In this document: positions 27,814-32,302 of the stretch, piece after piece
Layout of the letters: every line of letters begins with the position of its first letter
Numbering within the stretch: the stretch's first letter is position 1
Translations under genes and position numbers: made by a program
Notes under the pieces: generated by a model
What the model was told of the DNA's origin: nothing
Database searches by the model: none
What the model saw: the letters and a program-made list of their open reading frames with translations, nothing else
Assembly: GCF_002154335.2 (NCBI RefSeq)
Contig: NZ_MTPX02000075.1
Span: 1-64,000, forward strand
Length of the DNA stretch: 64,000 bases
DNA from: Actinomyces ruminis
GTDB taxonomy: Bacteria; Actinomycetota; Actinomycetes; Actinomycetales; Actinomycetaceae
Direction: 5' to 3'

Positions 27814-29121
27814 TCAGGCCTCGGCAGGCTCACCGGTGCGGCACAGCACGGCGGCGATCGCCGTCGTCGCCGGGATGGCCAGCACCAGGCCGATGGAGGA
27901 CACCAGGGTGCGTACCACCTCCTCGGCGATCTCGCCCGAAAGCAGGGTGTCGGCCAGCGAGCGGTCGATCAGGGAGGCCGCCAGGATGAGCGGCAGGGCG
28001 GTGCCGGCATAGGCGAAGGCGAGGGTGTAGACGGTCGAGGCGATGTGATCGCGACCGATCCGCATGCCGCCGGTGAACAGACGGGCGCGGCCCAAGGCCG
28101 GGTTGGCGGCGTGCAGCTCCCACACGGCGGAGGCCTGGGTTATGGTGACATCGTTGAGTACGCCCAGGGCCGCCACCACCATCCCGCAGGTGAGCAGCGC
28201 CTGCAGGTTGATGCCGCTCACCATCGAGGTCAGGGTCAGGGCGGTCTCATCGGTGGCGCCGGTCAGGTTGGCGACGTCCACGCCCCACAGGGACAGCAGC
28301 ACGGTGATGACCACGCCGGCGAAGGTTCCCAGCAGCGCAGTGGTGGTGCGCACGGAGATGCCGTGGGCGACGTAGACGGCCAACAGCATCATCGCCGAGG
28401 CCCCCACCAGCGTCACCCACATGGGTGACGCCCGGTCCAGCAGCGCCGGGATCATGAAGCCGAGCAGGACGCCCGTGGCCAGCAGCAGGCCCAGCACGCT
28501 CAGGGCCCCCTTGCGCCCGGCGACGGCGACAACCAGCACCAGGTACACCACCGCCAACGCGGCGACCGGCACCTGGCGAGCGTAATCGATGAACACATAC
28601 GGGGTGCCGGAGGCGAGCGCGGCGGGCGTGTACATCACCTGCAGGCGATCGCCGACGTCGGCCGTGGCCAGGGACTCGGCGGGGATGTGCACCGGCATGA
28701 TCAGGCCGGCACCGTCGCCGGAGGTGATTTCCGCGCAGACGGCGTCGACCAGCAGGGAGTCGTTGGACACGCCCTCCAGCGCGCTGCTGGCATCGGCGCA
28801 GGCGGCGGTGTCCAGGGAGGTGATGGTGGCGGATTCGAGGGTGGCGCCGTCGGCGGTGAAGGGCTGGGAGCCGACCAGGGAGTTGTCACTCGGCCACAGC
28901 ACAATCAGGCCGATAAGCGTGGCCACCACCAGGGGCACGACGATGGCGGCCAGTATCAGGCGCACTCGCCTGATCTCGGCCGTTCCCAGGCTCAGGGGGC
29001 CGGAGTGGCTGTGCAGCGTCCGGGAGGCGTCCGCCTCGTTGGTGGACGTGCTTGCGTGCGCAGTGTCGGTGGACGTGCTTGTGCGGGCCTCGTCGGTGGC
29101 GGCCGGCTTGTCGTCGTTCAC
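27814..29121 (-). CDS. YibE/F-like multi-pass membrane protein
   Basis: A 435-residue integral membrane protein of the YibE/F family. A Thr/Ser-rich cytosolic N-tail (residues 1-50) precedes one TM helix (about 55-77), an extracytoplasmic domain (about 80-180) and seven or so further TM helices (VAALAVVYLVLVVAVAGRKG onward). Family hallmarks include NDVTITQASAVWELHAANP and MRIGRDHIASTVYTLAFAYAG. The function of the family is unproven. The GTG at 29119-29121 is the likely start. Confidence 0.85.
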   Translation of the reverse strand: MNDDKPAATDEARTSTSTDTAHASTSTNEADASRTLHSHSGPLSLGTAEIRRVRLILAAIVVPLVVATLIGLIVLWPSDNSLVGSQPFTADGATLESATITSLDTAACADASSALEGVSNDSLLVDAVCAEITSGDGAGLIMPVHIPAESLATADVGDRLQVMYTPAALASGTPYVFIDYARQVPVAALAVVYLVLVVAVAGRKGALSVLGLLLATGVLLGFMIPALLDRASPMWVTLVGASAMMLLAVYVAHGISVRTTTALLGTFAGVVITVLLSLWGVDVANLTGATDETALTLTSMVSGINLQALLTCGMVVAALGVLNDVTITQASAVWELHAANPALGRARLFTGGMRIGRDHIASTVYTLAFAYAGTALPLILAASLIDRSLADTLLSGEIAEEVVRTLVSSIGLVLAIPATTAIAAVLCRTGEPAEA

Positions 29122-29260: not shown

Positions 29261-29347
29261 AAATACGACCTCGGGCCGCGTTGCACGACCTCGGTGCCTG
29301 TTGCACGACCACCCGGGGGTCGTGGAACACACACCGAGGTCGTGCAG
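29261..29347. repeat. Palindromic array, word TTGCACGACC, left copy
   Basis: TTGCACGACC occurs at 29281 and 29301 with a degenerate copy ending at 29270 (20-bp period), then in inverted orientation as GGTCGTGGAA at 29318 and GGTCGTGCAG at 29338. The stretch of 58 bp beginning GCGTTGCACG at about 29278 is identical to the copy at 30744, on the other side of the DUF559 gene. The rest of the 430-bp gap between YibE/F and that gene shows nothing recognisable. Confidence 0.85.
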
Positions 29348-29552
29348 TGCGAGGCCTGCGGCACCGCAAAACGAGAAGCCAGCGGTCCAGGAGTATGACC
29401 AGGCATGGACCACCGGCACGCTCCCGCGGAGACTGGCCAACCAAAGCGCCAAAACCCACAGGCGCCATTAGCGGCACCCCCGACAACCGCTTGTCCACAG
29501 TCGGCGATGCGAGCAGTAGCCATCGCACTCACCTTGGGCGAATGGTGGAGCC

Positions 29553-30668
29553 ATGCCCACCTCGCCCGACCAAGCTCGCAACCATGATCTGTTTCCCGCA
29601 CTGATTCACACCGGTCGGCATGACCGCGCCGGCGTCGAGGTCCCCCGCTCCGCGCTGCGGCTTACTCCCGGCATTCACTGGGTTCCCGCCCCCGACGCGA
29701 AGCGCTGGCAGCACCGCTACACCCTGTCCCTGGCACGTGCCATAACCGCGCAGACCACGCACCGCTCCGCGCGCTGTCTCACCCACGCATCCGCCGCCCT
29801 TGTACTTGGCCTGCCGATGATGACGCAGGAGCCGGACGTGTACCTGGCGGTTCCCAGTACGCCCAAGCGAGTTGGCACGCCGCTGCCTCTGATCAGAGTG
29901 GCTCCTGCCGGACCACCGCGGTCGAGCAAGCACGAAGACTTCTACTGCCGGCAGGTCATGCTTTGGCGCCGACACCTGGACCTGTCGGAGGAAGACATAA
30001 CCGTGGTCGGCGGCCTGCCGGTCACCACCGTCTTACGTACCGCCTTCGACTGCGCCTTCGATGAGCCCGCACACAACGCCCTAGCCATAGCCGATGCGGC
30101 CCTGCGGCTGTACTGTCGCACGCACCACAACGACCGCAGCCTGGATGCGCAGGCCGAGGCACGTGCCCGCGGCATTTGGCAAGAATGGCTTCAGCAGTCC
30201 GCACGCAGACACGGAGTCGCACAAGCGCGGGCCGTGCTGGGGGCGGCGACGCCATTGGCCGACTCGCCCGGTGAGTCCGTCATGCGCTGGCTGACTCTCG
30301 TGCTCGGACTTAGGCCGCCACAAGTGCAATACCTTGTGGATACCGGAGCGAACCGGTGGTGGCTCGACCTGTGCTGGCCCGAACACGGGATCGTCATCGA
30401 GGTTGACGGCCGGATGAAGTACAACACCCGAGAAGACGCCTGGCAGGAGAAACTGCGTCAGGACTCCATCCAGTCCCTGGGCTGGCGATTCATACGAGTG
30501 ACTTACGGAGAGTTCCGCGATCTGCGCGCGTTGGCAGGCAAGGTGCTCGCGGCCTTCCCGGCCGGGACCGTCGCCTCACTCAGACCCAACCGTGATCTGC
30601 TGTGGCCGGGTACGAGGCTGGAAGCGGGGCTGCACGAAGGCTCCCTGCTAGGAATGCGCCGACGCTAA
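29553..30668 (+). CDS. DUF559 (Vsr-like nuclease) domain protein
   Basis: A 371-residue protein. The N-terminal ~200 residues resemble the AbiEi-like helix-turn-helix region often fused to DUF559 (HASAALVLGLPMM, VGGLPVTTVLRTAFDCA). The C-terminal ~110 residues form the DUF559 restriction-like fold: WLDLCWPEHGIVIEVDGRMKY (acidic catalytic residues), then QDSIQSLGWRFIRVTYGEF. The ATG at 29553 follows a likely GGAGCC ribosome site. Both flanks carry copies of the same palindromic array with a 58-bp identical core, so gene plus arrays may form one cassette of about 1.5 kb. Biochemical activity is not established for this group. Confidence 0.82.
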   Translation: MPTSPDQARNHDLFPALIHTGRHDRAGVEVPRSALRLTPGIHWVPAPDAKRWQHRYTLSLARAITAQTTHRSARCLTHASAALVLGLPMMTQEPDVYLAVPSTPKRVGTPLPLIRVAPAGPPRSSKHEDFYCRQVMLWRRHLDLSEEDITVVGGLPVTTVLRTAFDCAFDEPAHNALAIADAALRLYCRTHHNDRSLDAQAEARARGIWQEWLQQSARRHGVAQARAVLGAATPLADSPGESVMRWLTLVLGLRPPQVQYLVDTGANRWWLDLCWPEHGIVIEVDGRMKYNTREDAWQEKLRQDSIQSLGWRFIRVTYGEFRDLRALAGKVLAAFPAGTVASLRPNRDLLWPGTRLEAGLHEGSLLGMRRR

Positions 30669-30727
30669 ACGCAGTCGCCCCACGCGTGCTCCCCGAGCCG
30701 AGCCGACGCCGGGCACATCTCATGCAC

Positions 30728-30832
30728 AGCACGACCCCCGGCTGCGTTGCACGACCTCGGTGCCTGTTGCACGACCACCCGGGGGTCGTGGAACACACAC
30801 CAGGGTCGTGCAATGTCACAAAGGTCGTGGAA
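30728..30832. repeat. Palindromic array, word TTGCACGACC, right copy
   Basis: GCACGACC at 30729, TTGCACGACC at 30747 and 30767, then inverted GGTCGTGGAA at 30784, GGTCGTGCAA at 30804 and GGTCGTGGAA at 30823, with a 19-20-bp period on both sides. Three copies face three, giving nested 10-bp helices with symmetric internal loops if single-stranded. It lies between the DUF559 stop and the convergent glyS stop and shares a 58-bp identical core with 29278-29335. Confidence 0.85.
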
Positions 30833-30908: not shown

Positions 30909-32302
30909 TCAGCAGCCGACCAGGCGCTCGGCGAGGTAGCGCTCCACACCCTCGAGCGGGATGCGCTCCTGGGCCATGGTGTCGCGCTCGCGCACCGTCA
31001 CCGCACCGTCCTCGGGCGACTCGAAGTCGTAGGTGATGCAGAAGGGGGTGCCGACCTCGTCCTGGCGGCGGTAGCGGCGCCCGACGGCGCCGGCCTCGTC
31101 GTACTCGACGTTCCAGTTGCGGCGCAGCCGGGCGGCGAGCTCGCGGGCCGGGCCGGTCAGTTCCTCCTTGCGGCTCAGCGGCAGCACGGCGGCCTTGACC
31201 GGGGCCAGGCGCGGGTCCAGGCGCAGCAGCACGCGCTTGTCGACGCCGCCCTTGGTGTTGGGCGCCTCGTCCTCGGTGTAGGCCTCCACCAGGAATGCCA
31301 TCAGCGAGCGGGTCAAGCCCGCCGACGGCTCGATCACGTAGGGGGTCCAGCGCTCGTTCTTCCCCTGGTCGAAGTAGGACAGGTCCTTGCCGGAGTGATC
31401 GGCGTGAGTGGACAGGTCGAAGTCGGTGCGGTTGGCAATGCCCTCCAGCTCGCCCCACTCCCCGCCGGCGAAGCCGAAGCGGTACTCCAGGTCGACGGTG
31501 CGCTTGGAGTAGTGGGAGAGCTTCTCCTTGGGGTGCTCGTACAGGCGCAGGTTGTCCTCGCTGATGCCCAGGTCCGTGTACCAGGCCTTGCGGTAGTCGA
31601 TCCAGTACTGGTGCCACTCCTCGTCCGTGCCGGGCTCGACGAAGAACTCCAGCTCCATCTGCTCGAACTCGCGGGTGCGGAAGATGAAGTTGCCGGGCGT
31701 GATCTCGTTGCGGAAGGACTTGCCGACCTGCCCGATGCCGAAGGGCGGCTTCTTGCGGGCGGCGGTCATCACGTTGGTGAAGTTGATGAAGATGCCCTGG
31801 GCGGTCTCGGGGCGCAGGTAGTGCAGGCCGGCCTCGTCATCGACCGGGCCGAGGTAGGTCTTGAGCAGGCCGGAGAAGGCCTTAGGCTCGGTGAAGGCGC
31901 CGCGGGTACCGCAGTTGGGGCACACGAGCTGGTCCAGGGTGACGGTGTCGGGGTTGTCGATGCCGTGCTTGGCGGCGTACGCTCCTGCAGCTCGTCCTCG
32001 CGCAGCCGCTTGTGGCAGGAGGTGCACTCGATCAGCGGGTCGGTGAAGGCGGCGACGTGGCCGGAGGCGACCCAGGTCTCCCGCGGCAGGATGACGGAGG
32101 AGTCCAGGCCGACGACATCGTCACGGGAGCGGACCATGTACTGCCACCATTGACGCTTGATGTTCTCCTTCAGCTCCACACCGAGCGGGCCGTAGTCCCA
32201 GGCCGAGCGGGTGCCGCCGTAGATCTCGCCGCAGGGGAAGACGAAACCACGCCGCTTGGCAAGGTTGATGACGCGGTCGAGCGTTGAGGGAGTTGCTGCC
32301 AC
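30909..32302 (-). CDS. glyS: Glycyl-tRNA synthetase, dimeric type (one -1 frameshift)
   Basis: A class II aminoacyl-tRNA synthetase that charges tRNA-Gly; the alpha2 form found in actinobacteria. Corrected length is about 464 residues. The GTG at 32300-32302 has GGAGAAA upstream. Class II motifs are visible ([49 protein letters not shown]), and a zinc-binding insertion carries ECTSCHKR and VCPNCGTRG. The frame slips at about 31982 (CAGGAGCG for CAGGAGGCG). The gene is essential and no second copy is in the window, which supports a sequencing error. Confidence 0.94.

Follow-up and report, generated by a model that had tools for sequence, protein, structure and literature searches.

A Vsr-type nuclease gene between two palindromic arrays: a candidate two-part chromosomal element in Actinomyces and other Actinomycetota

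What connects a nuclease gene with the two palindromic arrays that bracket it? The question is raised by a 64,000-nucleotide stretch of the Actinomyces ruminis genome (hereafter the window), in which one open reading frame, taken as the sole gene between the arrays, has a multi-word palindromic array on either side. The features of the locus are collected in Table 1. The downstream neighbor encodes a class II aminoacyl-tRNA synthetase, here called glyS; its frame is split in this assembly into two overlapping frames (30909–32027 and 31769–32302), perhaps by a sequencing error.

Table 1 Features of the nuclease locus in the window
Feature	Coordinates	Strand	Description
Upstream neighbor	27814..29121	-	yibE/F-like gene; chromosomal site marker
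Upstream array	29261..29347	.	decayed word at 29261-29270, TTGCACGACC at 29281 and 29301, inverted words at 29318 and 29338
Nuclease gene	29553..30668	+	371-aa ORF; AbiEi-like N-terminal region and Vsr/I-Bth0305I-type domain
Downstream array	30727..30832	.	TTGCACGACC at 30747 and 30767 after an imperfect word at 30727; inverted words follow at 30784, 30804 and 30823
Downstream neighbor	30909..32302	-	class II aminoacyl-tRNA synthetase gene

The original prediction held that the two arrays share 58 identical bases and a common design, in which a word repeated at 20-bp steps is followed by its complement at 19–20-bp steps. Both statements are borne out. The longest exact run common to the arrays is 58 nucleotides (29278–29335 and 30744–30801), the word positions agree, and the arrays are 93% identical over 85 nucleotides. 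The array unit consists of TTSCACGACC and a 10-base spacer; it recurs at 20 bp and meets its inverted form at the dyad CACGACC-N7-GGTCGTG, the core of which reads CACGACC-ACCCGGG-GGTCGTG in the upstream array. At the center, the starts of the two inverted words are separated by 17 bp; the final step on the right is 19 bp. Within the arrays, TTGCACGACC is exact at 29281, 29301, 30747, and 30767 on the plus strand and at 30804 on the minus strand, and carries one mismatch at 29318, 29338, 30784, and 30823, all on the minus strand. At no more than one mismatch the word has 14 matches in the window, nine of them inside the two arrays, while 100 shuffled windows gave a mean of 5.8 and a maximum of 15, one shuffle reaching at least 14. 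The clustering at regular steps is far from chance; the number of matches is not.

The gene had been described as DUF559 nuclease-like, a description of which the second half stands, while the family label is weak for this protein. The window protein scores weakly against the Pfam models DUF559 (E 0.078) and MTES_1575 (E 1.9e-5), both times below the family cut-off; over 55 homologues, MTES_1575 matches 27 and DUF559 matches 15. An AlphaFold2 model of the protein built from 55 sequences (mean pLDDT 88.9) contains an AbiEi-like region at about residues 12–233 and a nuclease domain at about residues 238–340. The nuclease domain comes closest in fold to I-Bth0305I, whose catalytic domain (3r3p_A) aligns at Z 9.2 with an rmsd of 2.4 over 95 residues and scores a TMt of 0.79 in Foldseek (E 0.014); NGO0050 (Z 8.7) and Vsr (Z 6.7) have similar folds. 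With the model of the whole protein, Foldseek matched nothing at or below E 0.001, and the sequence of the window protein had no match among PDB sequences; a profile of the 55 homologues reached NGO0050 (3hrl) at E 3.8e-4. Five residues, E241, D272, E283, D285, and K289, do not vary among 22 Actinomyces homologues. Across all 55 homologues the four acidic residues are invariant and K289 is nearly so. By analogy with the fold family, these five residues probably form the active site. The nuclease assignment stems from the fold and the conserved residues and not from the DUF559 label.

The region that precedes the nuclease domain resembles AbiEi. PADLOC AbiEi models match it in all four proteins scanned, with best E values from 2.5e-7 (the window protein) to 1.2e-12 (the L135 protein). 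Its match to the AbiEi structure 6y8q_A (Z 7.6, rmsd 6.3) lies under a Z of 8 and is not strong; MenT nucleotidyltransferases score like AbiEi over the same residues, a likeness to the JHP933 nucleotidyltransferase is present as well, and Pfam AbiEi models match at most 4 of the 55 homologues. The Pfam matches of the 55 homologues include no transposase family. AbiEi proteins are reported to bind inverted repeats, and for one of them two repeat sets are described (PMC7319586).

Bracketing by matching flanks extends well beyond the window. As a threshold we used a segment score of 33. Among 995 control placements within the same loci this score marks the 99th percentile, the median being 18 and the highest value 217 (L135). 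The threshold was derived from 650-base flanks, and the flanks compared were 730 bases long for Actinomyces loci and 1000 bases for phylum loci. Left and right flanks share a segment scoring above 33 in 30 of 33 Actinomyces loci, drawn in part from 39 other Actinomyces genomes with a protein match, 29 of which yielded new loci. The misses are L012 and L085, both with internal stop codons, and L075 (29). The same holds for 34 of the 39 named loci tested out of 43 (L104, L114, L126, and L136 lie near contig ends and were left out), the misses being L110, L111, L113 (which has a run of N), L124, and L132 (Rhodococcus). Because the two sets come partly from the same genomes, these fractions are not independent. 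When each named locus was held against every one of its own control placements, the count was again 34 of 39, but L135 fails (control 217) and L113 passes. Bracketed loci include those of Skermania, Marmoricola, a Nocardioidaceae MAG, and Nocardioides oceani, whose proteins are 26–30% identical to the window protein.

In a sample of the phylum, a homologue is present in 96 of 396 genomes and 67 of 237 genera. Thirty loci were fetched and 29 used (L149, at a contig edge, was left out; L137 comes from the genome of the window itself, where it is a paralogue), and 22 exceed 33, among them L146 (37), a long weak alignment that may be due to chance. None of the phylum loci beats the maximum of a cross-locus null with 1000-base flanks, in which related loci were included (300 pairs; median 17.5, 95th percentile 25, 99th percentile 151, maximum 699). 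The shared segment is self-complementary (score of at least 20) in 21 of the 22 bracketed loci; random 90-base segments have a 95th percentile of 19 and a 99th of 32, and the segments compared differ in length. The loci below the threshold are L154, L157, L160 (31, palindromic), L161 (25), L163, L164, and L165. Four of these (L157, L163, L164, and L165) belong to family f41, with small genomes, and have no matching flanks within 1 kb; L158, also of f41, has them. The original prediction had named a usual lack of flanking arrays as the outcome that would speak against it; homologous genes usually have them in the named, Actinomyces, and phylum loci.

Arrays of the window type are also dispersed through the genome. 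Plain TTGCACGACC has a high background (37 exact words in the window's genome, G000, against 20 for the reversed word), so the evidence rests on paired patterns: G000 contains 29 word pairs at 20-bp steps and 20 strict dyads, and the controls contain none of either. The strict dyad occurs in 7 of 49 Actinomyces genomes, namely G000 (20 copies), G034 (19), G010 (16), G024 (16), G041 (15), G028 (5), and G025 (1). Orthologues of the window protein (79–91% identity) are encoded in G041, G010, G024, G034, and G028; named carriers are A. succiniciruminis, A. glycerinitolerans, and A. ruminicola. Among the 49 genomes, the six with at least five dyads are exactly the six with the gene or a close orthologue. 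Since these six are related, their agreement alone could reflect shared descent. A second motif, that of the A. gerencseriae locus (L087/L112), forms 69 + 67 = 136 word pairs in G009, 1–6 in nine further genomes, and none in 39; the reversed-pattern control gives 0. In Actinomyces, array abundance accompanies the cognate gene (six of 49 genomes; G009), in line with the proposed tie between arrays and DUF559-like genes. Seven of the nine low-copy genomes contain a CGGTCGTAC array with the identical spacer GTAAAACCGCG (L253, L255–L258, and others), probably one old relic.

Two further palindrome families lie outside Actinomyces. In the genus to which G409 belongs, 26 of 31 genomes contain GAGCGTGC palindromes, at 1–26 copies each, a count of the palindromes alone; the reversed control is 0 except for one place in each of two genomes. 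This genus is probably Mycobacterium: the isocitrate lyase of another member, G457, aligns end to end with PDB 5dql, presumably the M. tuberculosis enzyme. The 52-nt palindromes of family f27 number 15 in G102, 8 in G412, and 5 in G190, and two genomes of other families have none. A pair of them brackets the nuclease gene in G102 and G412; the gene in G190 is bracketed by a different palindrome.

Most arrays lie between genes. By crude gene calls, 62 of 70 arrays fall outside predicted genes; of 320 positions drawn at random from the stretches that hold them, 117 do. Fifty-two arrays could be classed by the gap they occupy: 10 divergent, 24 tandem, and 18 convergent, against 19, 46, and 21 of 86 control gaps. 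Since convergent gaps are not clearly enriched by these calls, we set aside the reading of the arrays as terminators; that of a known RNA element was dropped as well, since 12 loci, L193 included, gave no Rfam hit at the gathering score.

Copies elsewhere in the genome also bear on the suggestion that the two flanking arrays of the window arose by recent duplication. They agree at 77 of 91 bases, against 74 in the best comparison with the 18 other copies, and pairs of non-flanking arrays in the same genome reach 86 of 91. In G024, G010, and G034, other copies match better than the two that flank the gene. As the window's flanking arrays barely exceed other copies in similarity, their likeness is that of the whole family and gives no sign of recent duplication, for which we find no support.

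Does the array motif change with the protein? Among the 435 pairs formed by 30 Actinomyces loci, the array is common to all 31 pairs whose proteins are at least 75% identical, to 1 of 10 pairs at 60–75%, to 18 of 136 at 45–60%, to 10 of 212 at 35–45%, and to none of 46 at 25–35%. The Mantel correlation between the motif and protein matrices is 0.45, a value attained in none of 2000 permutations. This correlation would fit co-evolution or plain divergence with time and does not separate the two.

Sites shared between species allow a closer comparison. When the outer flanks of 31 named loci were compared, several species groups proved to carry the gene at the same chromosomal site. At one such site, L102, L105, L107, and L108 (A. 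oris-type and A. johnsonii) have a single array type, with scores of 64–107. In L109 (A. massiliensis) the left and right copies match each other (64) but score 9–10 against the arrays of these four loci, where shuffled arrays reach 14 at the 99th percentile. Judged by these alignments, both arrays differ together between species at this site, the one locus at which the difference is complete and clear. Two other shared sites have arrays that are partly alike, scoring 12–27 (68 for L115/L121; L113 was not usable) and 16–30, and a further site has scores of 26–27 versus 89.

The gene is inverted relative to its outer flanks at three shared sites (L109 versus its four partners, L117/L119 versus L113/L115/L118/L121, and L125 versus L116/L120); the flanks in this comparison start 900 bases from the gene. 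A fourth inversion, between A. bowdenii (L070/L098) and L071, has its breakpoints at the arrays. The outer-flank comparison found no inversion in the window's group and two further groups. A decayed nuclease gene occupies the yibE/F-glyS site of the window in G048 (L085), in opposite orientation and without matching flanks.

The original prediction had raised the question whether empty sites lack the whole 1.5-kb unit. A search for the glyS flank in 49 genomes gave loci from 30; the gene adjoins glyS only in the six clade members, and yibE/F lies within 1.5 kb of glyS in 23 of the 24 gene-less loci, all but that of G037. In G025, the nearest gene-less relative (glyS 93%), the gene is absent but one diverged array is kept between yibE/F and glyS. 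This solo array could be an ancestral target or what was left behind by a loss. At a dispersed site, L184, an array is present in G000, G041, G034, and G028 and the gap is collapsed in G010 and G024, a difference that looks like array loss rather than gain. Site L182 has an array-sized gap in G028. Among the sites compared, no new array insertion with clean junctions and no target-site duplication came to light.

With moderate confidence, we favor a model in which the locus is a two-part chromosomal element: an AbiEi-like/Vsr-type nuclease and a palindromic array that the protein would recognize, with break repair spreading, homogenizing, and recombining the arrays. The AbiEi-like N-terminal region would bind array units as a dimer or oligomer, and the nuclease domain would nick or cut the array or the DNA next to it. 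When such a break is repaired against a second array copy, arrays would spread to new intergenic sites and stay uniform, and DNA lying between two arrays would be inverted, removed, or added. A gene lying between two arrays would be kept with them, as in a REPtron but by a different enzyme. At the level of sequence, the model draws on bracketing, motifs proper to each lineage, dispersal mainly with the cognate gene in the cases tested, joint difference of the two arrays, inversion, and presence or absence at a site. The gene itself was not seen to move. It is single copy in its own genome, where other homologues are at most 41% identical, and it sits at loci shared between species. Searches of plasmids (L148 protein as query, limit 1e-15), phages (L135 protein, limit 1e-10), and viral contigs (query A1) returned no match, and distant copies could escape each of them. 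Inversion, loss, and homogenization at repeats can also come from ordinary recombination without a nuclease, and opposite gene orientation could stem from independent insertion. Ordinary recombination explains the inversions but not the link between gene and motif.

Other explanations deserve consideration. The enzyme might act on a single-stranded or cruciform palindrome and copy or move it directly, a hairpin transposition of the RAYT kind that we regard as unlikely. In its favor, stem positions 13–16 of the f27 palindromes pair far above shuffles (p 0.000 each), as do positions 14, 15, 17, and 18 of the mycobacterial-type palindromes (p 0.006 or less), while the central part shows no such excess in either; because the copies are related, these shuffle values are not probabilities. 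In L069, L090, and L093, moreover, the cores of the two flanking copies are mutually inverted. Against this stands the enzyme, the fold of which is of the PD-(D/E)XK/Vsr type and not HUH, together with the arrays of the window clade. In 70 arrays from four genomes the central CACGACC words are constant because the arrays were picked by them, and the remainder varies; in the 20 arrays of G000, variable positions on the two sides of the dyad do not generally covary (4 of 54 pairs with shuffle p <0.05), which speaks against a hairpin in this clade. The window-clade arrays look instead like protein sites lined up along double-stranded DNA. The family as a whole may use both hairpin and duplex forms, or palindrome correction may itself produce the covariation. 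At positions 11–13 of the mycobacterial-type palindromes the arms pair below shuffles, two unlike arms resembling an internal bulge.

Alternatively, the protein could be an AbiEi-type repressor, with the arrays serving as operators and as a regulon scattered through the genome, while the nuclease domain acts elsewhere. Its AbiEi-like region and the intergenic position of most arrays suit such a role, and AbiEi and Rv2827c are reported to bind inverted repeats in their own promoters (PMC7319586). We nonetheless consider this quite improbable: divergent, promoter-type gaps are not preferred (10 of 52 arrays, against 19 of 86 control gaps), array sites vary between close species, and a pure regulator does not readily explain an array downstream of the gene, gene inversions, or a conserved active site. 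A role in defense, with the nuclease as an effector against phages or plasmids and the arrays as self-marks, decoys, or triggers, can appeal to the PADLOC matches in all four proteins scanned and to a Vsr-like nuclease linked to DNA damage in Caulobacter (PMC12907096). Yet the two neighbors of the window gene encode neither toxin nor methylase, and defense alone leaves the dispersal and joint change of the arrays unexplained, which makes this reading very improbable. That generic intergenic repeats flank the gene by chance or hitchhiking is hardly credible. Although 18 of the 20 strict dyads in G000 do lie away from the gene, separate clades have the gene bracketed by unrelated motifs, and at one locus the two arrays differ jointly; coincidence as the sole explanation is contradicted on both counts.

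How does the two-part element compare with known systems? In the layout, the likeness to RAYT and REP that had been pointed out holds: an enzyme gene lies between palindromes, cognate copies occur genome-wide, and the motif is specific to the lineage. REP/RAYT systems are described in PMC8266576 as an enzyme gene beside palindromes, with cognate palindromes across the genome and co-evolution of enzyme and repeat; the RAYT gene is mostly single copy there, with no evidence of its own mobility. REP palindromes are reported to carry a GTAG or CGTC tag at one end. The REPtron enzyme is an HUH transposase related to IS200/IS605, whereas the enzyme here combines a Vsr-type PD-(D/E)XK domain with an AbiEi-like region. 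The window clade differs further in its multi-word arrays at 20-bp steps without general covariation, in the opposite orientations of the gene, and in the solo array at an empty site.

The nuclease domain shares its Vsr-like catalytic fold with I-Bth0305I. Homing endonucleases of that kind are usually encoded within an intron or intein. No intron or intein was seen here; the window gene is intergenic, between yibE/F and glyS, at an unsplit site with an array on each side. In its N-terminal region, which probably binds DNA, the protein resembles AbiEi, a family that binds inverted repeats, though the structural match is not strong; it carries a fused nuclease domain, its repeats lie on both sides of the gene and are dispersed, and the two window neighbors include no AbiEii (DUF1814) toxin gene of the AbiE type. 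It has the same type of nuclease fold as Vsr, DUF559, and MTES_1575 proteins, but scores below the Pfam cut-offs and has no methylase among its two neighbors. The transposase gene of an insertion sequence, bounded by terminal inverted repeats, typically comes in several copies; the window gene is present in one copy and at the same locus in six species. With no HUH enzyme, no intron or intein setting, and no adjoining toxin, we assign the element to no known system. The openly licensed literature, to which the search was confined, yielded no description of a nuclease-array pairing, and the portions available of openly licensed papers that use the term DUF559 name no flanking repeats.

It is tempting to generalize, and we incline slightly to do so, to a class of self-maintaining elements across much of Actinomycetota. 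In such elements, a nuclease with an AbiEi-like reader would propagate and homogenize its own arrays by break repair; their origin would be independent of RAYT/REP; specificity and arrays would change together; and array-bounded DNA (the element's own gene and occasional passengers) would be prone to inversion, loss, and insertion. If correct, the REP/RAYT arrangement would have been reached a second time with an unrelated enzyme, and the dispersed palindrome families of Actinomyces, of probable mycobacteria, and of further Actinomycetota would be accounted for. Genomes could then be rearranged through inversions and passenger genes between arrays. Homologous nucleases go with different long motifs from one lineage to the next and thereby offer a natural set of candidate nuclease-site pairs, the site being readable from the flanks; the spread and uniformity of the dispersed palindromes can be tested with one protein and one DNA fragment per lineage.

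Several individual loci are of separate interest. In G034, two near-identical arrays surround about 3 kb (L228:1762-4919), where the G000 counterpart, L196, has one array. The open reading frame there, 847 amino acids as listed with its first residues inside an array, ends in a sortase-like LAKTG tail and is surface-protein-like. In the A. bowdenii locus L098 (5128-6523), a peptidase S66 (LD-carboxypeptidase) gene adjoins the nuclease unit, and a third array lies on its far side. Finally, the downstream flanking repeat in G029 (L078:2560-3587) is not a single palindrome; it recurs several times in direct orientation at irregular spacing.
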